Below are positions 8,891 to 25,595 of a stretch of DNA of 64,000 nt, piece after piece. A program made the translations under genes and the position numbers. Within the stretch, counting starts at the first letter, position 1; every line of letters begins with the position of its first letter. The stretch comes from Allobosea sp. BK604. Lineage in GTDB: Bacteria > Pseudomonadota > Alphaproteobacteria > Rhizobiales > Beijerinckiaceae. The notes under the pieces are model-generated. The model did no database searches, was not told the DNA's origin, and saw only the letters and a program-made list of their open reading frames with translations. Where the stretch lies: positions 62,001-126,000 of the forward strand of contig NZ_SLZF01000007.1 of the NCBI RefSeq assembly GCF_004341515.1. Direction: 5' to 3'.

Positions 8891-9682
8891 GTGCTAAGCA
8901 AGCAGGCGATTGCGCCCGCCGAGACCATCCTGCAGGTCAGCGACGTTCATCGCCGTTTCGGCGGAGTCGCGGCCGTTGCCGGTGCCGATTTCGCCGTTCG
9001 GCGTGGTTCGATCACCGGCCTGCTCGGGCCGAACGGAGCCGGCAAGACGACGCTGTTCAACATCGTCGCCGGATCGATCCCGCCATCGAGCGGCAGCATC
9101 CTTCTCGAAGGTCGCGACGTCACCGGTCGGCGGCCCGACGAGCTCGCGCATCTCGGCCTGACCCGGACCTTCCAGCTGGCGCGCGGCCTGTCCGATCTCA
9201 CGGTGCTGGAGAATTTCGCGCTCTACGCCAAGGCGCATCCGGGCGAGACGCTCTGGCGCGTCTTCCTCGATGCCGGCTCCGTCAAGCAGCGCGAGGAGGC
9301 GGTGCTGGAGGGGGCCTGGGAGCTGGTGCGGCAGCTCAACCTCGCCCATGTCGCGAATAACCGCACCACCGACCTTTCCGGCGGCCAGAAGAAGCTGGTC
9401 GAGCTCGGCCGCGCCCTGCTCGGCCACCCGAAGCTGCTCCTGCTCGACGAGCCCATGGCCGGCGTCAACCCGGCGCTCGCGGTCGAGATCGGCAACTACC
9501 TCCTGTCCATTCGCGATCGTGGCGTCACGATCCTGGTCATCGAACACAACATGAGCTTCATCCGTCAGATCTGCGACCATGTCATCGTGCTCGCCGCCGG
9601 CAAGGTCATCGCCGAAGGCAGCTTCGAGGAGGTCCGCGCCAACGAGACCGTGCAGGCCGCCTATTTCGGGAGCTCGCTGTGA
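8891..9682 (+). CDS. livG: Branched-chain-type ABC importer, ATP-binding protein (LivG-like)
   Basis: A 263-residue ATPase of the HAAT (branched-chain amino acid type) importer class. Walker A is GPNGAGKTT, the signature is LSGGQKKLVELGRALL, Walker B is LLLLDEPMAGVNP, and the LivG-typical TRTFQLARGLSDLTVLENF is present. A GTG at 8891 is used; a GTG at 8870 in the same frame is the other option. It is the first gene of an operon and overlaps livF by four bases. The transported solute need not be an amino acid, since this class also imports aromatic acids and amides. Confidence 0.9.
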   Translation: MLSKQAIAPAETILQVSDVHRRFGGVAAVAGADFAVRRGSITGLLGPNGAGKTTLFNIVAGSIPPSSGSILLEGRDVTGRRPDELAHLGLTRTFQLARGLSDLTVLENFALYAKAHPGETLWRVFLDAGSVKQREEAVLEGAWELVRQLNLAHVANNRTTDLSGGQKKLVELGRALLGHPKLLLLDEPMAGVNPALAVEIGNYLLSIRDRGVTILVIEHNMSFIRQICDHVIVLAAGKVIAEGSFEEVRANETVQAAYFGSSL

Positions 9683-10389
9683 GCTTCCTCAAGGTCGACC
9701 AGGTCGTCGCCGGCTATGGCGCGCATGACGAGATCCTGAAAAAGGTCGACATGGTGGTCGAGCCGGGCGAGATCGTCTCGATCCTCGGCCCCAACGGCGC
9801 CGGCAAATCCACGCTACTCAAGACGGTGGCCGGGCTGGTCGCGCCGCGCTCCGGCACCGTCGAATTCGTCGGGGCGGATATCGCCGGGCTGCGGCCGCGC
9901 GATGTCAGCCGCCGCGGCATCGTCTTCGTGCCGCAGGAGCACAACATCTTCGCCTCGCTGTCGATCGAGGAGAATCTCGAGATCGCCAGCTACCTCGACA
10001 AGGCTGAATACCGGACCCGCCTCGCGCAGGTCTATGCGCGCATGCCGGAATTGGCCGATCGCCGCCGGCTCACCGCGGGCGCCCTCTCCGGCGGCCAGCG
10101 CCAGTCGCTGGCCATGGCGATGGCGCTGATGGTCGGGCCCCGGCTGATGCTGCTCGACGAGCCGACGGCAGGGCTCTCGCCCGCGGCCGCGGAAAAGCTC
10201 TTCGCGCTCGTCCGCGCCATTCGCGACGACGGCGTGACCATTGCCATGGTCGAGCAGAACGCCTTGCGCTCGCTGATGGTCTCGGACCGCGCCTACATCC
10301 TGGTCGATGGCCGCAATGCCCGCAGCGGTTCGGCTCAGGAACTGATCAACGACGCCGAGATCCGCCAGATCTTTCTCGGCGAAAAGTGA
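9679..10389 (+). CDS. livF: Branched-chain-type ABC importer, ATP-binding protein (LivF-like)
   Basis: A 236-residue ATPase pairing with the LivG-like protein. It shows LGPNGAGKSTLLKTVAGL (Walker A), the LivF-type VFVPQEHNIFASLSIEENLEI, LSGGQRQSLAMAMALM and LMLLDEPTAGLSP. Its GTG start overlaps the TGA of the preceding gene (GTGA), implying translational coupling. Confidence 0.92.
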   Translation: MSFLKVDQVVAGYGAHDEILKKVDMVVEPGEIVSILGPNGAGKSTLLKTVAGLVAPRSGTVEFVGADIAGLRPRDVSRRGIVFVPQEHNIFASLSIEENLEIASYLDKAEYRTRLAQVYARMPELADRRRLTAGALSGGQRQSLAMAMALMVGPRLMLLDEPTAGLSPAAAEKLFALVRAIRDDGVTIAMVEQNALRSLMVSDRAYILVDGRNARSGSAQELINDAEIRQIFLGEK

Positions 10390-10426
10390 CCGAACGGCCC
10401 GGAAGGCCATACGAGGGGAGGAGATC

Positions 10427-11638
10427 ATGACCATGACAGGTTCGAGCATTTCACGGCGCAGCTTGCTCAAGACCGCAGCCGGTGCGGGAGCGGTGGCGTT
10501 GTTTGCTCCCGGCATCGCGCGGGCGCAGCTCACCGAGCCGGTCCGGATCGGCGCGCTGATGTCGCTGACCGGCGCCGGCGGCACCTGGGGGCCGATCATG
10601 GCCAAGATTCAGCAGCAGATCGTCGCCCAGGTGAACGATGCCGGCGGCGTCCTTGGCCAGAAGGTCGAGTATTTCGTCGAGGACGACCAGACCAATCCCG
10701 ATGCCGGCGTCCTGGCCGCGCGCAAGCTGATCGATGTCAACAAGGTCTGTGCCATCACCGGCGTCTGGTCCTCGGCCGTGGCGATGCCGACCTTGCCGAT
10801 CTGCTGGCAGAACAAGGTCGCGATGCTCGGCATCGCTGCCTCGGATACGCTCGCGGAGCTGCCGCACCAGGGTTATTTCCTGCGCACCTATGTTCCCGTC
10901 TCGCTTCAGGGCAAGGCGATCGGCCAGTTCGGGCTGGCGCGCGGCGCCAAGAACTTCTTCGTCATGCTGGCGCAGAACCCGTTCAGCCAGGCCATGCTCA
11001 AGGGCCTGAAGGACGAGGTCGAGCCGAAGGGCGCCAAGGTCAACCACGTCATCTATGACGGCACCAAGACCTCGTTCCGCTCCGAGGTCGACCAGGCGCT
11101 GAAGGCCAAGCCCGATTTCATCATGCTCGGCGGCTATCCGCAGGATAGCGGCGCGATCATGAAGGACCTCTACCGCAACAGCTATAGCGGTACGATCTGC
11201 GGCTTCGGCACCGCGATCACCGGCGAGTTCATCGCCGCCGCGGGCAAGGATGTCGCCAACGGCGTCTACACGGTCTTCCCCTCGGTCGCCGAGAACTCGC
11301 CCGCCTATAAGAGCCTGCAGAAGCTCGTCGGCTCGACTGATGTGCTCGATACCAATCGCTGCCAGGCCTATGACCAGATCAACCTGGCGATCCTGGCCGT
11401 CGCCGCCGGCAAGCAGGCCAGCGGCGAGTCGATCCAGAAGACCATCCGCTCGACGATCGGCGGTCCGGATGGCGAGCCCGTCGGCGACGTCCTGACCGGC
11501 CTCAAGCTCCTCTCCGAGGGCAAGCGGATCAATTACGAGGGCGCCTCGAGCAATTGCGAGTTCCTGCCGAACGGCAACCTGCCCAACGCCTATTTCAAGA
11601 CGATGCAGGTCAAGGACGGCGTCCTCACGACCGTCTGA
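10427..11638 (+). CDS. ABC importer substrate-binding protein, Leu/Ile/Val-binding type
   Basis: A 403-residue type I periplasmic binding protein. A Tat-type signal is clear: SRRSLLKTAAGAGAVALF, then cleavage near GIARAQ. The mature part begins EPVRIGALMSLTGAGGTWGP, the standard start of the HAAT binding domain, and includes a VVNDAGG-like AQVNDAGGVLGQKVEYFVED. AGGGGAGGAGATC gives a strong ribosome binding site. It is the specificity component for the surrounding LivGFHM transporter. Ligand unknown; neighbouring hydrolases suggest an ester, lactone or amide. Confidence 0.9.
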   Translation: MTMTGSSISRRSLLKTAAGAGAVALFAPGIARAQLTEPVRIGALMSLTGAGGTWGPIMAKIQQQIVAQVNDAGGVLGQKVEYFVEDDQTNPDAGVLAARKLIDVNKVCAITGVWSSAVAMPTLPICWQNKVAMLGIAASDTLAELPHQGYFLRTYVPVSLQGKAIGQFGLARGAKNFFVMLAQNPFSQAMLKGLKDEVEPKGAKVNHVIYDGTKTSFRSEVDQALKAKPDFIMLGGYPQDSGAIMKDLYRNSYSGTICGFGTAITGEFIAAAGKDVANGVYTVFPSVAENSPAYKSLQKLVGSTDVLDTNRCQAYDQINLAILAVAAGKQASGESIQKTIRSTIGGPDGEPVGDVLTGLKLLSEGKRINYEGASSNCEFLPNGNLPNAYFKTMQVKDGVLTTV

Positions 11639-13644: not shown

Positions 13645-14424
13645 ATGCGCAAGCAGCTCTTCCATCGCATCCAGGGGCAGGGATCGCCGCTCGTCCTGCT
13701 CCACCCTGTCGGGCTCGACCACAGCTTCTGGGGCCCGCTCGTCGAGCAGGCGGCGAGCCTGCATACGGTCGTCAGCGTCGACCTCATGGGTCATGGCGCC
13801 TCGCCCTCCGCCTCGCCCGATCGCGGCATTGCGGCCTTTGCCGCCGATGTCGCCGCGCTTCTCGACGATCTCGGATTCGCCCGCGCCGGCCTGCTCGGCC
13901 TTTCCTTCGGCGGGATGATCACGCAGGAATTCGCCCTCGGCTTTCGTGAGCGGCTCGCCTTCATGATCGTCGGGGCCTGCGGCCCGCGCATTCCGCCCGA
14001 GGCGCGCGAGGCCGTCCGCGCCCGCGGCGTCACCGATCCCGCGACCGGCATGGCCGGGATCGTCGATGCGACGCTGCAGCGCTGGTTCACCGCACCGTTC
14101 CTCGGCACCGAGCCGACACGGCGCGTGGCAGCTCGACTGCTCGCCAATGACCCCATCGGCTGGGCCGCCGGCTGGAACGCGATTTCCGGCTTCGACGCCC
14201 TCGACCGCCTCGGCACGATCAAGGCCCCGGCGCTGGTCATTGCCGCAGAGCACGATGCCGGCACGCCGGTCGCCGCGACCAGGATGATCGCGGACGCGAT
14301 CCCCGGCGCCGAATTCGCCCTGCTGCCCGGCGCGCCGCACATGATGCAGATCGAACATGCCAAGGCCTTCACGGCGCGCGTGATGACCTTCCTGCGCGCA
14401 CGCGCCGCTGCCGGACAGGCCTGA
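13645..14424 (+). CDS. Alpha/beta-fold hydrolase, enol-lactonase-like
   Basis: A 259-residue alpha/beta hydrolase. The oxyanion segment is LLHPVGLDHSFWG, the nucleophile elbow LLGLSFGGMI places Ser87, and Asp204 (AAEHDAG) and His232 (GAPHMMQIE) complete the triad. The overall layout resembles 3-oxoadipate enol-lactonase and N-formylmaleamate deformylase. It follows the ABC permease and precedes the dimeric-barrel protein by 16 bases. A role in opening a lactone, ester or amide of the imported compound is an inference from context. Confidence 0.85.
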   Translation: MRKQLFHRIQGQGSPLVLLHPVGLDHSFWGPLVEQAASLHTVVSVDLMGHGASPSASPDRGIAAFAADVAALLDDLGFARAGLLGLSFGGMITQEFALGFRERLAFMIVGACGPRIPPEAREAVRARGVTDPATGMAGIVDATLQRWFTAPFLGTEPTRRVAARLLANDPIGWAAGWNAISGFDALDRLGTIKAPALVIAAEHDAGTPVAATRMIADAIPGAEFALLPGAPHMMQIEHAKAFTARVMTFLRARAAAGQA

Positions 14425-14440: not shown

Positions 14441-15019
14441 ATGCCGCAACTGGGACTTCTGTTCGTCATCAACGAGCCCCCCGCCGCGATGGAGGAGGAG
14501 CTCAACGCCTGGTACGACACCGAGCATATTCCCGAACGGCTCGCCATCGACGGCTTCCTGTCGGGCGAGCGCTATGTCTCGGCGGTGCGGCAACGCCGCT
14601 ACCTCGCGCTCTACGACCTGACCGATGTCGAGGTCCTGCGCAGCCCGGGCTACATGGCCTTCGTCGGCGACCGCTTCACGCCTTGGACCAAGCGCATCCT
14701 CTCGCGGACCAGGGTGACGCGCTACGAGGCGGTGCAGCTCTACCCCGGCGATGCCGTGGCCATCCCCGCGCCCGGCCACCTCATCCTGCGCTGCACCGGC
14801 ATCGCCGCGCCAGGCGAGATCGAGGAGCGGGCGAAGCGCTGCTTCCTCGGCAAGCCGGGCGTGGCCCAGTTGCGCATCTACGCCGGCAGCGGCGCTAATG
14901 CCGGCTCCGCCTTCATCCATGTCGCCGGAACGGGCGATCTCGCCGCGCTTGCCGATCCGCAGGTCCTTGCGGGCATGCAGGGCCGTCTGGAGTTGATCGA
15001 GACCTACCTTCCGTATTAA
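14441..15019 (+). CDS. Dimeric alpha/beta-barrel (EthD-like) protein, two-domain form
   Basis: A 192-residue protein with no precise assignment. The first 110 residues contain LNAWYDTEHIPERL, GFLSGERY and PWTKRI, which match the 112-residue protein at 23503 almost motif for motif and resemble EthD/ferredoxin-like dimeric barrels. The second half (LILRCTGIAAPG to LELIETYLPY) looks like a degenerate second copy of the fold, so one chain may form a pseudodimer. It ends the first block of the importer operon. A role as a small isomerase, decyclase or binding protein in the pathway is plausible but unproven. Confidence 0.65.
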   Translation: MPQLGLLFVINEPPAAMEEELNAWYDTEHIPERLAIDGFLSGERYVSAVRQRRYLALYDLTDVEVLRSPGYMAFVGDRFTPWTKRILSRTRVTRYEAVQLYPGDAVAIPAPGHLILRCTGIAAPGEIEERAKRCFLGKPGVAQLRIYAGSGANAGSAFIHVAGTGDLAALADPQVLAGMQGRLELIETYLPY

Positions 15020-15034
15020 GCGCGCTCATTAAAG

Positions 15035-15168
15035 TGGCGACATTTTAAATCGGAGAGAAAGACTCCGCTCTGTTGCCGTTCCATATATTATTGAATTCAC
15101 TAGGAAATGAAGAGATCAGCTTTCAGGCGGAATGTCGACATCGCTTGACGGCTTAAAAAATGTCGACA
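15035..15168. promoter_or_regulatory. Operator cluster: two TGTCGACA palindromes and one variant
   Basis: Exact palindromes TGTCGACA occur at 15133-15140 and 15161-15168, the latter inside a 12-base perfect palindrome AATGTCGACATT. Their centres are 28 bases apart, close to three helical turns. A one-mismatch form TGGCGACA lies at 15035-15042. They sit just before the metalloenzyme gene at 15232. The AT-rich surroundings (about 15040-15180) mark a promoter. Likely target of the GntR regulator encoded at 17162. Confidence 0.6.
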
Positions 15169-15231
15169 TTATTGCCGTTAACACGATGGGCGCCCTTCAT
15201 GCGAGCGGTGTCCCGAAAAAGGAGAAAAGAC

Positions 15232-16293
15232 ATGAACAGGGGCAGCTTCATCGCTGGGACGCTCGACTATCTGCGCCGCCCGCTGGTCGCCAACATCACC
15301 AAGGGCAAGCGCGTCCTCGTGCTGTCCGACTTCGATCACGACCCGCGCGTCTGGCAGGCCGTGATGACGATCCTGGCCGATATCGGCGCGGACGCGACGC
15401 TGTCGCTGTTCGAGCGTCGCCCGGCCGATTATTACGATCCGCCATCGGCCGTGGTCGAAGCGATGATGAACTCAGATTTCAACATCCTGCTCGCCTCGAC
15501 CGGCATGTTGCACTCCTCGGCGAGCTTCAACGCCATGGCGGCCGGCATCCCGTCGATCTGCATGGATGGTGGCATGACGCTGGAGATGTTCCAGTCGGGC
15601 GCCGTCACCGACGACATGAAGATGATCGCGCTGCGCAAGCATTACGTCTCGAAGAACGTGTTCGGGCCGGATCCGAAGATGTGCCGCGTCACCTCCGATT
15701 ACGGCACCGACTTCACCTATAGCGTCGATGGCCGCATCACCTGCCCGCCGCTGCCGGGCCCGGATTTCGATCCCTACAAGATCATCAACTTCGCCAAGGA
15801 CGAGAACCGTCCGGGCAACAACCTGCTCTACTACCTGTTCCCGACCGGCGAGTTCAACGTCGCCCCGGTCGAGGGCAGCGCCAATGGCAAGCTCGTCATC
15901 GACCTCACCATGCACCATATCGGCCGCGTGCTGACGCCGATCGAGCTGACGGTGAAGGACGGGCGCGTGATCGATATCGACGGCGGCCCGGAAGCGCGCA
16001 TCCTGCGCGACTATCTCGAAGTCTATGGCGACGAGAACGCCTATATGTGCCCGGCCGAGGCCTCGGTCGGCGTCAACGCCAAGGCGGTCGTGCGCGGCAT
16101 CCAGCGCGAGGACAAGAACATCTGGGGCACGCTGCATTTCGGCCTCGGCACCAATGTCGATGTCGGCGGCTCGGTGAAGTCGAAGATCCATATGGACGGC
16201 GTCATCCTGCATCCGACCCTCGAGGTCGACGGCGTCACCAAGATCAAGCGCGGCAAGTTCCTGGTGCCGATCGAGAAGGATATCGGCGCGTAA
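15232..16293 (+). CDS. M29 aminopeptidase / NicX-superfamily metalloenzyme
   Basis: A 353-residue protein like the leucyl aminopeptidase T (M29) group, which also includes the 2,5-dihydroxypyridine dioxygenase NicX. Candidate metal ligands are Glu214 (PVEGSANG), Glu276 (PAEASVGVN), His302 (TLHFGLG), and His320 and Asp322 (KIHMDGV). Two Glu plus HxD fits the binuclear M29 site better than the mononuclear NicX set, judged from memory of both families. AAAAAGGAGAAAAGAC is a strong ribosome binding site for ATG 15232. Own operators lie upstream and the Cys hydrolase follows by 13 bases. Peptidase, amidase or ring-cleaving oxygenase are all open. Confidence 0.75.
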   Translation: MNRGSFIAGTLDYLRRPLVANITKGKRVLVLSDFDHDPRVWQAVMTILADIGADATLSLFERRPADYYDPPSAVVEAMMNSDFNILLASTGMLHSSASFNAMAAGIPSICMDGGMTLEMFQSGAVTDDMKMIALRKHYVSKNVFGPDPKMCRVTSDYGTDFTYSVDGRITCPPLPGPDFDPYKIINFAKDENRPGNNLLYYLFPTGEFNVAPVEGSANGKLVIDLTMHHIGRVLTPIELTVKDGRVIDIDGGPEARILRDYLEVYGDENAYMCPAEASVGVNAKAVVRGIQREDKNIWGTLHFGLGTNVDVGGSVKSKIHMDGVILHPTLEVDGVTKIKRGKFLVPIEKDIGA

Positions 16294-16306
16294 GAAGGGA
16301 ACGACG

Positions 16307-17089
16307 ATGATCCTGGCGCATCGCGTCGAAGGTCCGGCCGGCGGCTTGCCCCTGTTCCTGATCCATCCGCTCGGGGCGGATCAGGGCTTCTGGGACGAGT
16401 GCCGCCGTCATGTCGGGCCGGATGTCCTGACCGTGAGTTGCGACCTGCGCGGCAGCGGTGCCTCGCCCGATCTCGGCGAGCCGCTGACGTTCGCGACCAC
16501 GGTCGCTGATATCGAGGCGCTGCGCCTTCATCTCGGGCTCGATCGCATCGTGCTCGCCGGCTGCGCCGTCGGCGCCATGGCTGCTACGGCTTACGCCGCG
16601 CGCCATGGCGCGCATGTCGCCGGCCTCGTGATGTCCAATCCCGGCATCCGCATCATGCCCGCCGGCGTGGAGAACCTGCGCCAGCGGGCCGAGGCGGTGC
16701 GCCGCTCGGGCATGGCGAGCCTGCTGCCTGGCGCGATCGAGAATGCCTTCATCGGCTATGGCGATACGCCGGCTCGCAAAAGCTACGAGGCGAAGTTCGT
16801 GGCGCAGAAAGCCGAGAACTACGCCTTCGCCTGCGAGGGCGCCGCGCTCTCCGATATCACCGGGGATTGCGCCTGGATTGCCTGCCCGGTCCTGCTCGTG
16901 CCCGGCCGCAACGACCGCCTGTTCCCACGCGAGCATACCGACGCGATCGCCGCGATCCTGCCGCGCGCGAAGGTCGACGAGTTCGAATCGGGCGCGCATT
17001 TCATCCCCTATCAACAGCCGCGTGAATTCGGCGCGGCGCTGCTGAATTTCGTCACCCAGGCCGGATTACTGCCGCGCCAATCGGCCTGA
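16307..17089 (+). CDS. Alpha/beta-fold hydrolase with a cysteine nucleophile
   Basis: A 260-residue alpha/beta hydrolase of the same size and layout as the one at 13645. The oxyanion region is LIHPLGADQGFWDE. The nucleophile elbow reads LAGCAVGAMA, so Cys86 replaces the usual Ser, while Asp203 (GRNDRLFP) and His231 (GAHFIPYQQP) are kept. A Cys-His-Asp triad is known from dienelactone hydrolase, so this may be an active thiol hydrolase with altered specificity. It is coupled to the M29/NicX-like gene. Family certain, reaction unknown. Confidence 0.85.
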   Translation: MILAHRVEGPAGGLPLFLIHPLGADQGFWDECRRHVGPDVLTVSCDLRGSGASPDLGEPLTFATTVADIEALRLHLGLDRIVLAGCAVGAMAATAYAARHGAHVAGLVMSNPGIRIMPAGVENLRQRAEAVRRSGMASLLPGAIENAFIGYGDTPARKSYEAKFVAQKAENYAFACEGAALSDITGDCAWIACPVLLVPGRNDRLFPREHTDAIAAILPRAKVDEFESGAHFIPYQQPREFGAALLNFVTQAGLLPRQSA

Positions 17090-17161: not shown

Positions 17162-17905
17162 TTGCCCGATCATGCGATGATGACCGCCGAGGAAAGCTTG
17201 TCGCGGGCGCAAGGTGTCATCCGTGGCATCATCGCCGCACGTGACGATCGCAACTCGCTGGTGACGCAGATCGCGATCGAGGTCGGCGCCGAGATCATCG
17301 AGGGTGTGATCCTGCCCGGGCACGATCTCAACTCGGTCGAGCTCGCCCGCCGCTACAAGACCAGCCGCACCCCGATCCGCGAGGCGCTGATGCTCCTCGA
17401 GAAGGAGGGGCTGGTCGATATCCCGCCGCGGCGGCGTCCGCGTGTCCTCGTCATGGATACCGGCACGATCCGCGAGATCTACCGGATCCGCGCGGCCATC
17501 CTCGAGCTCGTGGCCGGCGACGTGACCAAGAACGCCACGGACGATGAGCTGGCCGAGCTTGCCGGCACGGTCGCCGACATGGCGGCGGCCTGTGGCAATG
17601 ACGACCGCCGCGCCTATGTCTGGGCGAATATCGCCTTCCACGACATGAATCTCGCGGTCTCCAAGAACATGACGGCCAAGCGCCTGGTCGAGGCGCTGCT
17701 CCTGCGCACCTTCCCGCTGCGGCGTGTCTCGCTATCCCAGCCGGGGCGGCTGGCGGCTTCGCTCGACGACCATCAGCGCCTGATCAAGGCCTATCGCGAC
17801 CGCGACGCCAATCTCGCCGCCGCGCTGATCCGCTCCAACCATTTCAACGCGCTGCGCAATATCGAGCAGTCGGCAACATGGCGCGACCGCGCTGACCGCG
17901 ACTGA
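17162..17905 (+). CDS. GntR-family regulator with FCD ligand domain
   Basis: A 247-residue GntR regulator of the FadR (FCD) subfamily. The winged helix spans about residues 35-95 and includes LNSVELARRYKTSRTPIREALMLL with the GntR hallmark RTPIREAL. The C-terminal helical domain has the metal-binding-type pattern NIAFHDMN and DDHQRLIKAYRDRD followed by RSNHFNAL. A TTG start at 17162 is preferred because GAGGA lies six bases upstream; ATG 17177 is too far from it. It closes the catabolic cluster and probably binds the TGTCGACA sites. Confidence 0.88.
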   Translation: MPDHAMMTAEESLSRAQGVIRGIIAARDDRNSLVTQIAIEVGAEIIEGVILPGHDLNSVELARRYKTSRTPIREALMLLEKEGLVDIPPRRRPRVLVMDTGTIREIYRIRAAILELVAGDVTKNATDDELAELAGTVADMAAACGNDDRRAYVWANIAFHDMNLAVSKNMTAKRLVEALLLRTFPLRRVSLSQPGRLAASLDDHQRLIKAYRDRDANLAAALIRSNHFNALRNIEQSATWRDRADRD

Positions 17906-17916
17906 CAACTTGCCGG

Positions 17917-18342
17917 CTACATATGGACGTCGAAGGACTTGTCCATGATCACGACGCGGCTGTCGAACAGCCAGCGTCCGTCGACGCGGGTGAGGTCGCA
18001 GACATATTCGCCGGGCGAGAGCAGTTCCGTCACGCCTTCGCAGGTATAGAAGTCGAGCAGGTAGCAACGCGCCTTGGCCTTGTCGCCCTCGACCTCGGCC
18101 GTGACATTGCTGACCACATGACGGAACTGCGCCTTGCGCTCGCGCGTGACGCGCTCGGTCCGTTCGGCGAAATCGCGGATGCCGGCATGCCCCTCGAAGC
18201 GCCCGAGCACCGGGCTCTCGATGAAGGCGTTTTCGCTGAAGCAGCCGACGACGGCCTCGACATCGCAATGGTCGAGGCTCGTCGCATAGCGAATGAACAG
18301 GCTGTTGATCTCGAACCAGTCCTGAAGGGACGCTTGCTTCAT
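17917..18342 (-). CDS. SnoaL/NTF2-like protein
   Basis: A 141-residue protein of the NTF2/SnoaL fold (SnoaL_4 type). It shows FEINSLFIRYATSLDHCDVE, FIESPVLGRFEGHAGIRDFA, RHVVSNVTAEVEGDKAKARC and VDGRWLFDSRVV, all at expected spacing. Members include ring-hydroxylating dioxygenase small-subunit relatives, isomerases and cyclases. It is the last gene of the TRAP operon, 90 bases after dctP, and converges with the GntR gene. ATG 18342 follows a GGAAG site. Exact reaction unknown. Confidence 0.8.
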   Translation of the reverse strand: MKQASLQDWFEINSLFIRYATSLDHCDVEAVVGCFSENAFIESPVLGRFEGHAGIRDFAERTERVTRERKAQFRHVVSNVTAEVEGDKAKARCYLLDFYTCEGVTELLSPGEYVCDLTRVDGRWLFDSRVVIMDKSFDVHM

Positions 18343-18432
18343 CGAGGGTCTTCCGCGTTTGGCCGGGCGTAGTCGGGTCGGCATGGCGAGGGCGCCGGAA
18401 GCATGGCTTCCGACGCCCGCTCTTTCAGCTGA

Positions 18433-19479
18433 TCAGGCGCCCTGGAGCGCGGCGGCGCATTTGTCGAGCCAGGCCTTGCCGATCTTGCCCTCGAACTGGG
18501 CGCGGACCGGCTCGGTCGCCTGGACGAAAAGCTTCTTGTTCTCAGGCGTGATCTCGTTGACCTTGGCGACCTTCTCCAGCGTCGCACGCGCGCGCTCGAT
18601 ATCCTTGGGCTGCGCCTCCCATTGCCAGTCCATCGCCTTCTTCATGGCCTGGTTGATCATGGCCTGCTCTTCCGGCGCGAATTTCTTCCAGGTCGCCGGG
18701 CTGGTGGCGTTGAGGAAGAAGTCCATCGTATGCGCGTCGAGCGAGACATATTGCGCGACCTCGTACATCTTCTGGTCGACGACATCCGGCAGCGGATATT
18801 CGAAGCCGTCGACGACGCCCTGCTGCAGGGCGAGGTAGAGCTCGGACGGGTCCATCGCCACCGGGCTCGCGCCGAGCGCCTTGAAGGTCGCCATATAGAC
18901 CTCGCTGTTGATGACGCGCAGCTTCAGGCCCACCGTATCGGCCGGTTTCTGCACCGGGCGTGTGCGGTTGACGATGTGACGCGGCCCGAGCAGCCAGTAG
19001 CCGAAGACCTTGAGGCCGACGGCCTCGGTCATCTTCGAGATGTCGGAGCCGATCTCGCCCTCGAGCGCAGTGCGCAGCTTGGTCGGCGAGTCGATCATGT
19101 AGGGCAGCGTGAAGACGTCCATCGGCTTCACGAAGTTCGAATACCAGGCCGGCACGGCCATGCTGAAGTCGAGCGAGCCGGCCTGGACCGATTGCAGCAT
19201 CTCCGAGATCGGGCCGAGCTGCGAGCTCGGGAAGATCTGCAGCCTGTACTTGTTCGAGGAGAGTGCCGCGAGCTCATCGCCGAAGCGCTGGATCGCCTGA
19301 TGGTAGACGGTGTTGGCCGGGACCATATGGCCGAAGCGCAGGCGCACCGGCGACTGGCCGATGGCAGGTGAGGTGATGCCGAGCGCGCCGGCTGCTCCGG
19401 CCGCGCCTGCGGCCGCGGCGAGCTTCAGCGCGTCGCGCCGGCGGATACCCTTGGTCCGAGGCGTGGTCTTCTGAGTCAT
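18433..19479 (-). CDS. dctP: TRAP transporter substrate-binding protein (DctP family)
   Basis: A 348-residue periplasmic protein. Signal: RRRDALKLAAAAGAAGAAGALG with a twin-arginine motif, cleavage near SPAIGQ. The mature protein starts VRLRFGHMVPANTVYHQAI and includes SSQLGPISEMLQSVQAGSLDF, GLKLRVINSEVYMATFKALGA (the conserved Arg binding the ligand carboxylate) and ELYLALQQGVVDGFEYPLPD. The open frame extends over dctM, but ATG 19479 with GGGAGGAAACC upstream is the true start. Ligand is probably an organic or aromatic acid. Confidence 0.92.
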   Translation of the reverse strand: MTQKTTPRTKGIRRRDALKLAAAAGAAGAAGALGITSPAIGQSPVRLRFGHMVPANTVYHQAIQRFGDELAALSSNKYRLQIFPSSQLGPISEMLQSVQAGSLDFSMAVPAWYSNFVKPMDVFTLPYMIDSPTKLRTALEGEIGSDISKMTEAVGLKVFGYWLLGPRHIVNRTRPVQKPADTVGLKLRVINSEVYMATFKALGASPVAMDPSELYLALQQGVVDGFEYPLPDVVDQKMYEVAQYVSLDAHTMDFFLNATSPATWKKFAPEEQAMINQAMKKAMDWQWEAQPKDIERARATLEKVAKVNEITPENKKLFVQATEPVRAQFEGKIGKAWLDKCAAALQGA

Positions 19480-19574: not shown

Positions 19575-20861
19575 TCAGAATTTCAGCACGGCCGGCAGCC
19601 AGGTCGTCAGCGGCGGGAACAGGATCATCAGGACGACGACCAGGATCAGCCAGAAGACGAAGGGCAGGATCTCGAGCGAGAGCTTTTCGACCGAGATGTT
19701 CATCAGGCTCGAGGTCATGAACAGGATGACGCCGGCCGGTGGGTGGACGATGCCGACCATGCAGGCGATCACGAAGATGATGCCGAATTGCACGTCCGGC
19801 ACGCCGTACTGGGCGGCGATCGGCGCCAGCAGCGGCGCGACCGCGACCATGATCGGCACTGCGTCCATGACCATGCCGAGCACCAGCAGCGCGATCATGA
19901 CCAGGAACAGGAACACGGTCGGGCTGTCCGTGACCGAGGTCAGGAAATCGGCGAGCTGCTGGGTGACGCCGTCGAAGGCGAAGAGCCAGGAGATCAGCGC
20001 GCCGGTGGCGAGCAGCATGCCGACGACCGAGCTGATGATAGCGCTGTAGATGATCGCGTCGTAGATGTCCTTCAGCTTCAGCCGCGGCCGCGACAGGAAG
20101 CCGATGATCAGCGTGTAGACGACGCCGATGCCGGCCGACTCGGTCACGGTGAAGATGCCGCCGACGATGCCGCCGACGATCACGACCGGCAGGAACAGCA
20201 GCGGAATGACGGCGATCGTCTGCTTGACCAGTTCGCGGAAGGGCGGCCGCTCCAGCACCTTGCCGTAGTTGTGCTTCCGCGTCGTGTAGAAGGTCATGAC
20301 CAGGAAGCCGGCGGTGAAGAGCAGGCCGGGGATGATGGCTGCGATGAACAGCGCGCCCACCGAGACGTTGCCGACCGACATGGCGTAGATGATCATCGCC
20401 AGGCTGGGCGGGATGATCGGGCCGATGACGGCGGTCGCGGCGGTCAGCGCGGCGCTGTACATCACCGGATAGCCGGCGCGCACCATCAGCTGGATCTGGA
20501 CCCGGCCGGTCGAGGCGATGTCCGAGACCGCCGTGCCGCCGGCGCCGGCGAAGACCAGCGATTGCAGCACGTTGAGATAGGCCATGCCGCCGCGCCAGCG
20601 GCCGAGCAGCATCTGCAGCCAGACGACCATGCGTGGCAGCATATGCGCCCGGTCGGCCAGGATGCCGAGCATCGTGAAGAGCGGGATGGCGAGCAGCGGG
20701 AACGAGCCGAGCGACGAATAGAAGCGCCGCGTCAGGATGGTCGGCTCCATGTTCTCGAAGAAGAGCATGAAGGTCGAGGTCGCGAAGCCCATGCCGAACG
20801 CGACCGGCATGCCGATCAGGATGGTGAGCAGGAAGAGGATGCCGACGACGGGCAGCATCAT
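19575..20861 (-). CDS. dctM: TRAP transporter large permease (DctM family)
   Basis: A 428-residue membrane protein with about 12 hydrophobic segments. Family blocks are visible: FPLLAIPLFTMLGILADRA, GGTAVSDIASTG, GPIIPPSLAMIIYAMSVGNV and GIVHPPAGVILFMTSSL. It drives sodium-dependent uptake with DctQ and DctP. The ATGATG start overlaps the dctQ stop, giving translational coupling. Length is normal. Confidence 0.93.
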   Translation of the reverse strand: MMLPVVGILFLLTILIGMPVAFGMGFATSTFMLFFENMEPTILTRRFYSSLGSFPLLAIPLFTMLGILADRAHMLPRMVVWLQMLLGRWRGGMAYLNVLQSLVFAGAGGTAVSDIASTGRVQIQLMVRAGYPVMYSAALTAATAVIGPIIPPSLAMIIYAMSVGNVSVGALFIAAIIPGLLFTAGFLVMTFYTTRKHNYGKVLERPPFRELVKQTIAVIPLLFLPVVIVGGIVGGIFTVTESAGIGVVYTLIIGFLSRPRLKLKDIYDAIIYSAIISSVVGMLLATGALISWLFAFDGVTQQLADFLTSVTDSPTVFLFLVMIALLVLGMVMDAVPIMVAVAPLLAPIAAQYGVPDVQFGIIFVIACMVGIVHPPAGVILFMTSSLMNISVEKLSLEILPFVFWLILVVVLMILFPPLTTWLPAVLKF

Positions 20862-21448
20862 AGCGCGGCACTCCCGGTTGCGGGCATCGCGCGCCGGTCG
20901 AGCAGCATGAGCACGAGCTGGTGGTAGATCAGCAGCGCGAAGCCGACCGGGATCGCCAGGAAGCCCCAGACCAGGCTGAGATTGAGGGCAGGGTCCATCT
21001 GGCCGGCGGCCGGCCCGAGCGAGACGATGCCGCTCCACAACATCTCGGCGAAGAAGCCGAGCGCCAGGAACTGCCCGATGATGCGCACGGCCTTGCCGAT
21101 GCCCGTCGGCAGGCTCTTCACCAGCAGCTCGAAGCCGACATGGCCGCCCTGGCGTAGCGCGAGCCCCGCGCCGAGCAGGAAGAACCAGAGCAGCAGGAAT
21201 TTCGCCCCCGCGCTGACGAAGAACGAGGATGAGCCGAAGACGTAGCGCGAGACCACGTCATAGGCGATGAAGAAGGTGAACAGCACCCCGGCCGCGACCA
21301 GGATCCACTCGGTCGCCTTGATGATGATGAAGTCGATCCGGTAGAGCGCCGCGGGCAGGGCCGCGAATTGCTCGCCGATATGCATTTCCCAGGTCTTCTC
21401 GTCCGAGTCCCATGACTCGGCGTCGTCGTTTCTTGCGACGTCCGGCAT
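20858..21448 (-). CDS. dctQ: TRAP transporter small permease (DctQ family)
   Basis: A 196-residue protein with four hydrophobic segments: AATEWILVAAGVLFTF-like near residue 50, FLLLWFFLLGAGLALRQGGHVGFELL, IGQFLALGFFAEMLWSGIVSLG, and SLVWGFLAIPVGFALLIYHQL. ATG 21448 is chosen over the further upstream open frame because TTGGGAGGAAGC precedes it. The N-terminal 40 residues are polar and longer than usual. It is the first gene of the TRAP operon, downstream of AT-rich operators. Confidence 0.88.
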   Translation of the reverse strand: MPDVARNDDAESWDSDEKTWEMHIGEQFAALPAALYRIDFIIIKATEWILVAAGVLFTFFIAYDVVSRYVFGSSSFFVSAGAKFLLLWFFLLGAGLALRQGGHVGFELLVKSLPTGIGKAVRIIGQFLALGFFAEMLWSGIVSLGPAAGQMDPALNLSLVWGFLAIPVGFALLIYHQLVLMLLDRRAMPATGSAAL

Positions 21449-21632
21449 GCTTCCTCCCAAAGCTCTTCTGATTCTTGTCGTTGCCAGGCTGCGGCCTGCG
21501 GTTGGAGCATCCGCTCCTGCCATCTCCCTTCGTCGCGCTTCTTTTTGAGGCGTCGCCGCCATGTCGCGAGTGCACCAATTCAGGCGCCTTGGCCTCGACG
21601 ACTAACCCAAACAAGCAGGGCGCACAACGCTT

Positions 21633-21650
21633 TTTATTGATCTATAATTA
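21633..21650. promoter_or_regulatory. AT-rich operator, copy A (TRAP operon side)
   Basis: TTTATTGATCTATAATTA, 185 bases before dctQ. The same 18-mer occurs with two changes in reverse orientation at 23366-23383 and with three changes at 21767-21784. Recurrence in front of all three transcription units of this cluster suggests a shared regulator, most likely the TetR protein at 24876. Confidence 0.6.
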
Positions 21651-21740
21651 GGAAGTGAGGGGGCTGAGGGTTTTTCCTATCATCTTGATAGGCATAAGTT
21701 TTTATGGCGCCTTCATTTGCGTTTCCCCGACGCTCGGCGG

Positions 21741-21788
21741 TTGACACGGTCTTCTGACGGCTCTTATTTATATATCTAAAATTAAGAG
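21741..21788 (+). promoter_or_regulatory. Promoter with overlapping operator, copy B (aldolase side)
   Basis: A -35 box TTGACA at 21741-21746 and a -10-like TATTTA at 21765-21770 are 18 bases apart and point to the aldolase operon. The operator TTTATATATCTAAAATTA (21767-21784) overlaps the -10, and hexamers CTCTTA (21761-21766) and TAAGAG (21783-21788) flank it as an inverted repeat. Bound protein would block polymerase. Confidence 0.6.
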
Positions 21789-22094
21789 ACGAAACCCGTC
21801 GAAAGCCGACCGATGGACCGAGCCTGGGCCGAGCGCCGCGGCGGTCTCACAGCCGGCTGAGGCGAGGTTCGCTCGGGAGGAATGTCTTGGCCCTTGCCGC
21901 AACGATATGCGGAACGGTCGTTGCCGGTGACGGCCGCGATCGTCTGCCGCTCGACCATTTCAGAAACCTGCGCCGCCGAAGGGGCCGGGACCGCGCCTCG
22001 TCGCCTTCACGCCAGGCTGTCGGTGCCGCGCGCCGCGCTCCTGCCGTCCAGCTCGACCCGCAAACCTGATCCGCTCGCAACAGAGGCCAACAGA

Positions 22095-22886
22095 ATGCCC
22101 GGAATCTTCCCTCGCAATAACGTCAAGGACAAGCTCGCCAGGGACGAGGTCGTCACGTCGATGACTGTCCGGCTGGTCGACCGGCCGGCCATCGCGACGC
22201 TGGCGGCCGCCGCCGGCTATGACACGATCTATGTCGATCTCGAGCACAGCCCGCTGTCGCTGCAGGCGACGAGTGATATCTGCATCGCCGCGATGGCTGC
22301 GGGCATCACGCCATTCGTGCGGGTGCCGAACGTCTCCTCCGTGGTGTCGCGGATTCTCGACGGTGGCGCGCTCGGCATCATCGCCCCGCATGTCGAGAGC
22401 GCGGCCGCGGCGCAGGAGGTCGTCGATCTCGTGAAGTTCGCGCCCTGCGGTCATCGTTCCGAGGGCGGGCCGATGCCGCATTTCGGTTATCGCAACCCCT
22501 CCGTCGCCGAGACGCGCAGCATTTTCAACGAGACGACCAGTGTCGTGATCATGGTCGAATCCGGGGCGGCGCTGGAGCGGCTCGACGAGATCGCCGCGGT
22601 TCCCGGTGTCGACCTGCTCTTCATCGGCAGCAACGACCTGTGCAGCGATCTCGGTATTGCCGGTGATTTTGATCACCCGCGCCTGCGCGAGGCGTTCGAG
22701 CACACGATCTCCGTCAGTCGCAAGCATGGCAAACATGCCGGCATCGGCGGTCTCGCCGGCCGGCACGATCTTATCGCCGATTTCGTCGCCAAGGGCGCGC
22801 GCTACGTCTCGGTCGGTGCCGATCTCTCCTTCCTCGCGGCCGAGGCAAAGCGCTCGGCCGAATTCGTCCAGGGCCTTGCCCGCTGA
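22095..22886 (+). CDS. HpcH/HpaI-type class II aldolase
   Basis: A 263-residue metal-dependent aldolase of the HpcH/HpaI/GarL family, which cleaves 4-hydroxy-2-oxo acids to pyruvate and an aldehyde. Diagnostic residues are DLEHSPLS (general base His), PFVRVP (Arg binding pyruvate), IMVESGAALE (metal Glu) and FIGSNDLCSDLG (metal Asp). ATG 22095 is chosen because the family-like start FPRNNVKDKLARDEVV follows it; the open frame begins earlier. It is the first gene after an operator-overlapped promoter and precedes the SnoaL-like gene by 21 bases. Likely the carbon-carbon cleavage step of the pathway. Confidence 0.87.
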   Translation: MPGIFPRNNVKDKLARDEVVTSMTVRLVDRPAIATLAAAAGYDTIYVDLEHSPLSLQATSDICIAAMAAGITPFVRVPNVSSVVSRILDGGALGIIAPHVESAAAAQEVVDLVKFAPCGHRSEGGPMPHFGYRNPSVAETRSIFNETTSVVIMVESGAALERLDEIAAVPGVDLLFIGSNDLCSDLGIAGDFDHPRLREAFEHTISVSRKHGKHAGIGGLAGRHDLIADFVAKGARYVSVGADLSFLAAEAKRSAEFVQGLAR

Positions 22887-22907
22887 CCATCCCGGAGACC
22901 AGCAGAC

Positions 22908-23297
22908 ATGTCGCAGAACAGCAGCGAGGTAGGCGCCGTCAGGGCCGCGGAAAGAGCGCTTTACGACGCGATGATCGCGGTCGATCTCGGCGCGCTCGAA
23001 GAGATTCTCAGCGCCGATCTCAGCTATATCCACTCCACCGCCGTGGCTGAGGGCAAGGCCGAGTATCTCGAGCGCGTGAAGGCGCGGCATTACGATTACA
23101 GCTCCATCGAAAGCCGGGACGTCACCATCCGCATCCGTGACGATCTGGCCGTGATGGACGGTACGCTCGACATGGGCGTGGCCACCGCCGGTGGCCCGGA
23201 CCTGATGATGAAGCTGCTCTTCGTGCTGATCTGGACGAAGCAGGACGGACGCTGGCGCCTGTCGCTCAGGCAATCGACCAATGCCGGTGCGGTCTGA
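22908..23297 (+). CDS. NTF2-like (DUF4440/SnoaL) protein
   Basis: A 129-residue NTF2-fold protein: AVRAAERALYDAMIAVDLGALEEIL opens the cone, followed by LSYIHSTAVAEGKAEYLERV and the C-terminal WTKQDGRWRLSLRQST. This differs in detail from the SnoaL_4-like protein at 17917. GGAG precedes the start. It is co-transcribed with the aldolase. Possible isomerase or dehydratase of the same pathway; no catalytic assignment is possible by eye. Confidence 0.78.
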   Translation: MSQNSSEVGAVRAAERALYDAMIAVDLGALEEILSADLSYIHSTAVAEGKAEYLERVKARHYDYSSIESRDVTIRIRDDLAVMDGTLDMGVATAGGPDLMMKLLFVLIWTKQDGRWRLSLRQSTNAGAV

Positions 23298-23350
23298 GCG
23301 GGGAGGGCGCCGCGCTGTCCCGCACAGCGCGGCGGCCCGCGAGGGCCTGC

Positions 23351-23384
23351 TTGACATGGTCGATTTATTTGTAGATCAATAAAT
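23351..23384 (+). promoter_or_regulatory. Promoter with AT-rich operator, copy C
   Basis: A -35 box TTGACA (23351-23356) is followed by an inverted repeat ATTTATT (23363-23369) and AATAAAT (23378-23384) with an eight-base spacer. On the minus strand it contains TTTATTGATCTACAAATA, 16 of 18 bases identical to copy A. It would control the genes from 23503. It lies where a -10 box is expected, so repression is the simplest model. Confidence 0.6.
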
Positions 23385-23502
23385 AAGTGATTTCCCTATT
23401 TTGATCAGCTACTTGCGATCAATTTCGGCCGCGCGTGCCGCTGCCTGGCGGAAACGATCAGCAAGGACCTGGCCTGAAGGCCATGGCATGGGAGGATGAG
23501 CC

Positions 23503-23841
23503 GTGAGCACGCCGAATGGACGTGGCTTGATGATCGCGATGATCGATGTCGAGCCGGAATGGGAGGAGGAGTTCAACCGCTGGTATGACGAGGAGCATTT
23601 TCCCGATCGGGTGAATTGCCCCGGCTTCCTCAGCGGCCGGCGCTTCGTCGCTGTCGACGGCTCGCCGAAATATCTCGCGGTCTACGAACTCGAGAGCCCC
23701 GAGGTGATGCAGTCCGAAGCCTACAAGAAGATTTCGCAACAATCGCCCTGGACCAAGCGCATCCACGAGCACCTGACCAGCGTCAAGCGCAACGTCTATG
23801 TCGAGATCACGCCGAAACCGAAGACCGCCAAGGCTGAGTGA
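23503..23841 (+). CDS. Dimeric alpha/beta-barrel (EthD-like) protein, single-domain form
   Basis: A 112-residue protein starting at GTG behind GGGAGGATGAGCC. It has FNRWYDEEHFPDRV, CPGFLSGRRFV, YLAVYELESPEV and PWTKRIHEH, collinear with the first domain of the protein at 14441. The ferredoxin-like pattern matches EthD/ABM-type dimeric barrels. It is followed by the LigI-like amidohydrolase after about 50 bases. Function unknown; the WYDxEHxPxR motif is a candidate active or ligand site because it is kept in both paralogues. Confidence 0.7.
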   Translation: MSTPNGRGLMIAMIDVEPEWEEEFNRWYDEEHFPDRVNCPGFLSGRRFVAVDGSPKYLAVYELESPEVMQSEAYKKISQQSPWTKRIHEHLTSVKRNVYVEITPKPKTAKAE

Positions 23842-23892: not shown

Positions 23893-24759
23893 ATGAATCT
23901 CTGCCAGCCACCGCGTGCCGTCACGCGGCGTCCGACCCTCATTGCCCCGGCCGGGACCTGCGACAGCCACTGCCACATCATCGGGCCGGCGACGCGCTAT
24001 CCCGTTTCGCCCAACCGCAGCTTCACGGCGCCCGACGCCCTGGTCGACGACTATCTGCGCATGGCCGGAACGCTCGGCATCGAGCGCATGATCATCGTCC
24101 AGCCGAGCTTCTACGGCGCCGATAATTGCTGCACGGTCGACGCTATCGCCGCGCTCGGGCAGCACAGGGCGCGTGGCGTCGCCATGGTCGAGCCCACCAT
24201 CTCCGAGAACGCGCTCGCGGCGCTCGATGCGGGGGGCATCCGCGCCGCCCGCTTCATCACCACCGCCGGCGGCGGCGCCTCGATCGCCGATCTCGAGACC
24301 GTTGCCCGCAAGATCAAGCCCTTCGGTTGGCATGTCGAACTCTATGTGCCGCCGGCCTCCTGGCCCGAGATTCTGCCCGTGCTCGACCGGCTGCCGGTCC
24401 CGGCCGTGCTCGACCATATGGCCGCGCTCAGCGCCGATCCGGCCCGGAACGACCCGGCCGTGGTCAAGGCGATCCTGCGCCTGCTCGACGCCGAGAAGGC
24501 CTGGGTCAAGCTCTGCGGCTACCGCGCATCAGTCGCCGGTCACCCCTATGCCGACGTCGTCGGCCTGGCGAAATCGCTGATTGCTCATGCGCCGAGCCGC
24601 TGCGTCTGGGGCACCGACTGGCCGCATACCAACATCACCGGCCACATGCCGGATGATGGCGACCTGCTCGACCTGATGCTCGATTGGGAGCCGGGTGAGG
24701 CGGTCCGCAAGGCGATCCTGGCGGATAATCCTGCTCGGCTCTACGGCTTCGAGGACTGA
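23893..24759 (+). CDS. LigI-like amidohydrolase (TIM-barrel metal-dependent hydrolase)
   Basis: A 288-residue amidohydrolase of the group that includes 2-pyrone-4,6-dicarboxylate lactonase (LigI). The strand-1 HxH motif is GTCDSHCHIIGP, a strand-4 region reads GIRAARFITTAGGG, a later strand has AVLDHMAAL, VKLCGYRAS matches the LigI KLxG segment, and the strand-8 Asp is in CVWGTDWPHTN. ATG 23893 is used; an in-frame TTG at 23866 is possible. It probably hydrolyses a lactone or pyrone in the same pathway as the aldolase. Substrate not provable from sequence. Confidence 0.85.
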   Translation: MNLCQPPRAVTRRPTLIAPAGTCDSHCHIIGPATRYPVSPNRSFTAPDALVDDYLRMAGTLGIERMIIVQPSFYGADNCCTVDAIAALGQHRARGVAMVEPTISENALAALDAGGIRAARFITTAGGGASIADLETVARKIKPFGWHVELYVPPASWPEILPVLDRLPVPAVLDHMAALSADPARNDPAVVKAILRLLDAEKAWVKLCGYRASVAGHPYADVVGLAKSLIAHAPSRCVWGTDWPHTNITGHMPDDGDLLDLMLDWEPGEAVRKAILADNPARLYGFED

Positions 24760-24875: not shown

Positions 24876-25595
24876 ATGGTCATCGTCAAGGACAAGCGCC
24901 GTCGCGGAAGGACCTCGCCGGAAGGCGAGGCGCCACCGCCGCGCCGTCGGCGCATGGTGCCGGCTGACCGCGAACAGATGATCGTCGCCGCGGCGCGGCG
25001 CTATTTCGCCGACCATGGCCTCACCGGCAGCACGACGGAGCTCGCCCGGCGCCTGGAGATCACCCAGCCGCTGCTCTATCGCTATTTCCCGACCAAGGAC
25101 GCGCTGATCGCGCGCGTCTTCGACAGCCTCTTCCCACAGGACAAGTCGCTGGAATGGGAGCAACTGCTCGACGATGCGGCGATTCCCCTGCGCGAGCGGC
25201 TGAAGCGCTTCTACCAGGAATTCTCCCACCACGTGTTCACCTACGAGCACGTCAGGCTGTTCCTGTTCAGCGGCCTCGCCAAATACGAGTACAACGCGCA
25301 GTACTATGAGCTCCTGACGAAGCGGCTGTTTCACCGCATCGCGCTCGGCCTGCGCCAGCACTTCGCCATAGATGGCGCCCGCGACGACCTGCTGCCGGTC
25401 AGCGCGGCCGAGCTGGAACTGGTCCAGAGCCTCCATGCCGCGATCTACCATGTCAGCTTCCGCCGCTGGGTCCACACGCCCGGCTTGACCGGCGATATCG
25501 ACCGGTTGATCGATTTCAAGGTCGACAGTTTTCTCGACGGCGCGGCGGCGACGCAGAGCCGGCTGTCCAATGATTGGCCGGCGGGCACCATTTAA
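24876..25595 (+). CDS. TetR-family transcriptional regulator
   Basis: A 239-residue TetR regulator. The helix-turn-helix is MIVAAARRYFADHGLTGSTTELARRLEITQPLLYRYFPTKDALIARVF in short pieces around residues 35-80, preceded by a basic N-terminal arm (DKRRRGRTSPEG, PRRRRMVP). The C-terminal ligand domain is all helical. ATG 24876 follows AAAGAGG. It is the last gene of the second catabolic island and the best candidate for binding the three AT-rich operators. The long basic arm could contact AT-rich minor grooves. Confidence 0.85.
   Translation: MVIVKDKRRRGRTSPEGEAPPPRRRRMVPADREQMIVAAARRYFADHGLTGSTTELARRLEITQPLLYRYFPTKDALIARVFDSLFPQDKSLEWEQLLDDAAIPLRERLKRFYQEFSHHVFTYEHVRLFLFSGLAKYEYNAQYYELLTKRLFHRIALGLRQHFAIDGARDDLLPVSAAELELVQSLHAAIYHVSFRRWVHTPGLTGDIDRLIDFKVDSFLDGAAATQSRLSNDWPAGTI

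Follow-up and report, generated by a model that had tools for sequence, protein, structure and literature searches.

Three AT-rich sites in a catabolic gene cluster of Allobosea sp. BK604 are very probably copies of one operator, each placed before a different transcription unit and recognised, in dimeric form, by the TetR-family regulator encoded at 24876–25595 (+ strand). Coordinates refer to the 64,000-nucleotide stretch of DNA analysed as a whole, hereafter the window. A local three-site regulon of this regulator had been proposed in a first-pass annotation; its joint conservation with the sites in Bosea caraganae, the lack there of any match at E ≤ 1e-20 to a neighbouring GntR regulator and the palindromes found in relatives all argue for it. 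On this reading, an anonymous tetR gene and an uncharacterised transport and degradation cluster become a regulon that can be tested and whose three operators are named. A motif is gained as well for a TetR group whose genes neighbour transport and catabolic functions in Bosea, Rhizobium, Variovorax, Burkholderia, Paraburkholderia and others.

Three copies of one element

The first-pass annotation had described three copies of an AT-rich 18-mer, with two and three differences, one before each transcription unit, and had judged such matches unlikely by chance. All of this holds. The 18-mer TTTATTGATCTATAATTA lies at 21633–21650 on the + strand; TTTATATATCTAAAATTA, at 21767–21784 on the + strand, is a copy with three mismatches, and TTTATTGATCTACAAATA, at 23366–23383 on the − strand, a copy with two. 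They precede the TRAP, aldolase and dimeric-barrel units, respectively. The window contains these three matches, against none in 100 dinucleotide shuffles. The annotation had further named many unrelated genomic copies as evidence against a local regulon; at up to three mismatches, the whole genome (7,626,662 bases) holds the 18-mer at these three places only, named A, B and C, and the reversed pattern used as a control has no match.

We built an IUPAC pattern from six Bosea sites, the three here and three in B. caraganae. Its exact matches in the two genomes are those six places only. With up to two mismatches it also matches site C read in reverse and one other place per genome; the control pattern finds one and eight places at this tolerance. 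Two of 67 genomes of the genus have exact matches; the pattern was made from those two, so the informative result is that the other 65 have none. With a looser degenerate consensus, uniqueness in the Bosea genome is lost (25 + 25 rows, versus 8 + 10 for its control), and site B is missed at two mismatches.

A shared 22-bp dyad over the putative promoters

The full element is longer than the 18-mer and spans 22 bp. An axis placed after position 8 of the 18-mer gives 64 of 120 dyad pairs over six sites of two species; each of the eleven other axes tried gives at most 47. We adopted it because it is the best over the six sites and because the same axis is found in the relatives described below. 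An axis about position 10 pairs slightly better in sites A and C, each taken alone, and was not adopted. The predicted operators are all imperfect dyads: A, at 21630–21651 (8 of 11 pairs; contains 21633–21650), before the leftward TRAP operon; B, at 21764–21785 (8 of 11; contains 21767–21784), before the aldolase unit; and C, at 23365–23386 (9 of 11; contains 23366–23383), before the dimeric-barrel/amidohydrolase unit.

The TTGACA −35 boxes reported earlier beside two of the three copies are present at B and C, both on the + strand: the putative −35 of the aldolase unit at 21741–21746 and that of the dimeric-barrel unit at 23351–23356. From the start of the box to the dyad, the distance is 34 bp at site B and 25 bp at site C. 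In B. caraganae the first box is kept as TTGAC, again at 34 bp; the second is also TTGACA, 1 bp closer to the site, at 24 bp. TTGAC has a background frequency of 1.4% in comparable stretches of the window. No TTGAC box lies within 45 bp of site A. At such distances the dyads of B and C would fall over the −10/start region, a usual position for a repressor. The best reading of their sequences is that A, B and C are one 22-bp operator, which has the same dyad each time and lies over putative −10 regions.

A second palindrome, CCTATCA-n3-TGATAGG (CCTATCATCTTGATAGG), occupies 17 bp between the divergent promoters, at 21676–21692. In B. caraganae 16 of these 17 bp are kept, and at up to two mismatches it is the sole such place in both genomes. 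Its distance to the dyad of B is 90.5 bp in both species, and to the dyad of A 43.5 or 41.5 bp in the two. Its role may be that of an activator site or of an accessory one.

The gene cluster around the sites

The TRAP operon, on the − strand, starts with the small TRAP permease DctQ (20858–21448). It continues with the large permease (19575–20861), which we take to be DctM from its gene position and family likeness, and the solute-binding protein DctP (18433–19479), and it ends with a SnoaL-like protein (17917–18384). On the + strand, an HpcH/HpaI-type aldolase (22095–22886), whose nearest solved structures are HpcH/HpaI aldolases, is followed by a DUF4440/SnoaL-like protein (22908–23297). The third unit, also on the + strand, comprises a small protein (23503–23841) that the first-pass annotation called dimeric-barrel-like and that has a DUF4286 match below the cut-off, and an amidohydrolase (23893–24759), whose nearest solved structure is a 2-pyrone-4,6-dicarboxylate hydrolase (E 5e-52). 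The tetR gene lies about 115 bp beyond the amidohydrolase gene. Judging by these likenesses, the cluster would take up and break down an acid derived from an aromatic compound.

A transcription start near site B would give the aldolase mRNA a leader of about 300 nt (21786–22094), whose conservation between the two Bosea species looks poor. A neighbouring island (14441–17089) encodes a second protein like the 23503 product (42%) and an M29-like protein; together with the gene at 13645, it has two hydrolases resembling 3-oxoadipate enol-lactonase, with scores under the family cut-off. This set is reminiscent of the NicX and NicD steps in the degradation of nicotinate. The island did not turn up in the 19-kb B. 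caraganae stretch that holds the cluster.

Conservation in Bosea caraganae

The whole cluster was found in one other genome, that of B. caraganae. Gene order is the same there for all nine genes, SnoaL to TetR, with TetR at the same end, and the orthologue of the regulator is 80% identical. A close orthologue occurs in one of 60 other genomes searched, with the next at about 40% or below. For the dimeric-barrel protein, an orthologue above 90% exists in two of 67 genus genomes (next, 49%): the same two that have exact IUPAC sites. Between the two species, A keeps 17, B 20 and C 21 of 22 bp; the rest of the two gaps is identical at 260 of 585 (44%) and 67 of 183 (37%) positions.

The motif beside related tetR genes

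A similar palindrome lies beside the tetR genes of relatives whose recognition helix is identical or almost so. A weight matrix of the six Bosea sites detects such palindromes upstream of tetR genes that are 38–46% identical, in Rhizobium, Neorhizobium, Variovorax and Oceanibaculum. Among 37 tetR upstream stretches, six reach the shuffle limit of p 0.005 with 200 shuffles (L054, L057, L059, L061, L064 and L040), and two have p 0.015 (L062) and p 0.025 (L060b). The other 29 have p > 0.05, including L063, L058, L055, L056, L069 and both B. caraganae rows. The sites of L063 and L058 later entered the relatives' motif, a symmetric matrix of six sites (L054, L058, L061, L062, L063 and L064).

Scanned in the reverse direction, the relatives' motif puts C (26.4), A (21.4) and B (20.9) on top in the window, the next place scoring 12.9; in the 19-kb B. 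caraganae stretch the three sites are likewise on top (25.7, 23.5 and 20.4; next, 4.2). For the window, none of 1000 shuffles meets the best or the second-best score in gap 1 or the best in gap 2; for B. caraganae, 1, 0 and 0 of 1000 do. In each species, the summed score is reached by none of 1000 column-permuted matrices. This reverse scan is not fully independent, since it was the Bosea matrix, or inspection by eye next to its hits, that had drawn attention to the sites in relatives.

The motif also scores outside the set from which it was made. Methylobacterium has site pairs at 31.0/28.6 (L055) and 30.3/29.9 (L056), about 5.4 and 3.9 kb from tetR, respectively; L040 has a site of 27.2 adjoining tetR, and L069 has sites of 18.8 and 15.2. 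Weaker matches had already been seen with the Bosea matrix in L055, L056 and L040. Four plasmid loci were added later, from Cupriavidus, Rhizobium, Burkholderia and Paraburkholderia (four of the 15 records listed out of 60). In all four the best site of the locus adjoins tetR (13.4, 25.7, 25.7 and 25.9), upstream in three and downstream in L149; both sides of tetR were scored and the better one is quoted, and on that side 0 of 500 permuted matrices reach the score. Upstream of tetR in L149 there is nothing, as many as 362 of 500 permuted motifs being as good. Loci with a weak TetR match served as controls: all 18 scored at most 8.7 (of 20, two were too short), the stretch scanned in L081 and L087 being away from the TetR match.

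A sequence-only covariance model of the relatives' sites was rejected: with filters off, it misses A, B and C in the window. Its genome search, with 150 of 1429 and 150 of 1001 candidates scored, did not return the three sites and, because of that failure in the window, says nothing either way.

The TetR protein and two operator classes

The protein encoded at 24876 matches PF00440, the TetR_N helix-turn-helix, with 44 bits against a cut-off of 24. Its predicted structure (pLDDT 80.9) has 11 helices in an all-helical, two-domain arrangement, and the best structural match is FasR with DNA (VIA-align Z 16.2, rmsd 2.9, 183 aligned), the next rows being tied. The model is that of an ordinary TetR fold. 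The long basic N-terminal arm, suggested earlier as a DNA-binding feature, is not the conserved part: residues 1–22 have a predicted pLDDT below 50, and several relatives begin later, at start codons that we chose. Common to the relatives before helix 1 is a short basic segment, approximately R-R-R-[ML]-x-P-x-x-R-E. The recognition helix ITQPLLYRYF is shared by the protein, its B. caraganae orthologue and 10 of the 11 other relatives in alignment A2, the eleventh having ITQSLLYRYF.

Bosea sites depart from those of the relatives at one pair. C9 and G14 are invariant in the six motif-training sites, and all window sites deviate, by one base pair in each half-site, even though the recognition helix is identical. 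In the orientation of the 18-mer, position 9 is T or A in the Bosea sites and position 14 is T. They thus lack the symmetric C9/G14 core of the relatives' class (TKATC-n4-GATMA, T-type), and they keep its spacing and outer arms. Relatives with an ITH or ISH helix have TGACC-n4-GGTCA palindromes upstream, a second operator class (C-type); examples are L035–L039, L044, L045, L048, L049 and L051. The locus L060 carries two adjacent genes of the TetR group (9345–10645), whose helices read ITHSLLYRHF and ITHPLLYRYF; a palindrome of the TGACC type lies at 9160.

We counted the two classes, written down after some sites had been seen, in 70 rows less three duplicates (L135, L130 and L053). Exact T-type sites occur in 14 of 42 rows with glutamine (Q) in the helix and in 0 of 25 with histidine (H); exact C-type sites in one and 16, respectively. 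With one mismatch allowed, T-type sites are found in 28 Q and 0 H rows, and C-type sites in one Q and 20 H rows. The residue changes once on the tree, giving one independent pair, so that the association amounts to a single event and proves nothing about cause. That the helix residue dictates the half-site was set aside for this reason.

Which protein probably binds the sites

It is unlikely that the sites belong to a different, unlinked regulator and that the TetR protein controls something else. Such a regulator would fit the loss in Bosea of the otherwise invariant C9/G14 pair, and also the lack of a site at the tetR gene itself: the top three places of the window are A, B and C, and the region upstream of B. 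caraganae tetR scores −1.5. Against it stand the similar palindromes beside tetR relatives in both alpha- and betaproteobacteria. A TRAP/SnoaL/DUF4440 homologue locus from another family (L145, DctQ 58%) has no TetR match within 16 kb and, over the same 16 kb, no motif site either (best score, 6.2). Moreover, we compared 18 window proteins, three of them regulators (GntR, TetR and LacI), with the 19-kb B. caraganae stretch, and of these regulators only TetR was found there, in a stretch that may hold others outside the 18-protein comparison.

The blocks could also be parts of promoters, or places where a nucleoid protein docks, with no specific operator; UP elements and silencers of the MucR/Ros-like kind are of this type. 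We consider this quite improbable. In its favour, the sites overlap putative −10 regions, and the three top places of the window are the same when a flat AT-rich motif is used. Against it are the 17, 20 and 21 of 22 bp kept, the one best axis over six sites (64 of 120 pairs versus at most 47), the lack of any further genome copy and the failure of order-shuffled motifs of equal base make-up.

Regulators with GntR and FCD domains often control catabolic operons, and one is encoded at 17162, about 4 kb from the sites; that it binds them is barely conceivable and was rejected, because it has no match in B. caraganae at E ≤ 1e-20, though all three sites are kept there.

Proposed mode of control

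If A, B and C are operators of the TetR protein, its dimer would sit on the −10/start region of each promoter and, assuming negative control, keep the TRAP transporter, the aldolase and the amidohydrolase off. A substrate or intermediate would then bind the C-terminal domain. This could be an aromatic ring-cleavage lactone or dicarboxylate, a guess that follows from the 2-pyrone-4,6-dicarboxylate hydrolase-like and HpcH/HpaI-like enzymes of the cluster. Ligand binding would release the protein and turn the three units on together. Since tetR has no site of its own, feedback would be possible only through site C, provided that one transcript covers tetR together with the dimeric-barrel and amidohydrolase genes.

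Comparison with known regulators

A local TetR regulon with several operators is a known kind of arrangement. Among the matches listed from the open-licence literature, going by titles and the start of abstracts, we found no description of this TetR group or of the cluster; PMC13273656 concerns an IclR regulator and has no bearing here. As in the TetR/TetA, QacR and EthR type, the regulator gene adjoins its presumed targets, the dyads lie over putative promoters and the protein model has a TetR fold. Unlike that type, there are three operators for three units rather than one divergent promoter, and the tetR gene is without a site. The half-site of RutR, a TetR-family regulator of pyrimidine use, is TTGACCA. 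The TetR protein matches the RutR family TIGR03613 weakly, with 20.2 bits against a cut-off of 368. RutR, too, has a palindromic operator, of about 16 bp (PMC10891134).

The sites also resemble those of the TetR-family quorum-sensing master regulators of vibrios. A profile of the TetR group finds OpaR (1.4e-10) and HapR (1.1e-9) as its best solved structures. Vibrio LuxR/HapR/SmcR operators are likewise AT-rich dyads of 21–22 bp, with TTATT[G/T]AT as outer half-site. The sites here are dyads of this kind with TTATTGAT-like arms, an operator type that does not by itself confer membership of the LuxR/HapR family. According to PMC2628434, LuxR binds a dyad operator of 21 bp and acts as both activator and repressor, and regulators of the LuxR/HapR/SmcR type are global; the set described here, in contrast, is local, with three sites. 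The protein also differs from the HapR family NF040929 (cut-off 350 bits), which is not among the four families that it matches at E ≤ 0.001; a Rhizobium relative scores 21.1 bits against the same cut-off.

We derived a symmetric HapR matrix from 23 published sites (PMC10328515). Its consensus is TTATTGATAAA/TTTATCAATAA, compared with TTATTTATCAA/TCGATAAATAA for the relatives. The two matrices correlate at 0.67, a value reached by 0 of 5000 permutations. When the window is scanned with the HapR matrix, B, C and A again come out on top, and in the same register. This result is weak, since AT content alone explains part of the match: the flat AT-rich matrix selects these places too, and an equal score is obtained with 11 of 1000 permuted HapR matrices (in B. 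caraganae, with 6 of 1000).

It is possible, if rather doubtful, that the TetR protein belongs to a broad alpha- and betaproteobacterial group of catabolic regulators using essentially the LuxR/HapR operator. Such a group would have a DNA code, and perhaps a nutrient-sensing ancestor, in common with the vibrio regulators, and within it the change from Q to H, seen once on the tree, would switch the half-site from TKATC to TGACC. What goes slightly beyond the known kind of arrangement is a motif common to the group, together with its resemblance to the vibrio operators, and that likeness raises as a question the common origin of vibrio quorum regulators and nutrient-sensing repressors.
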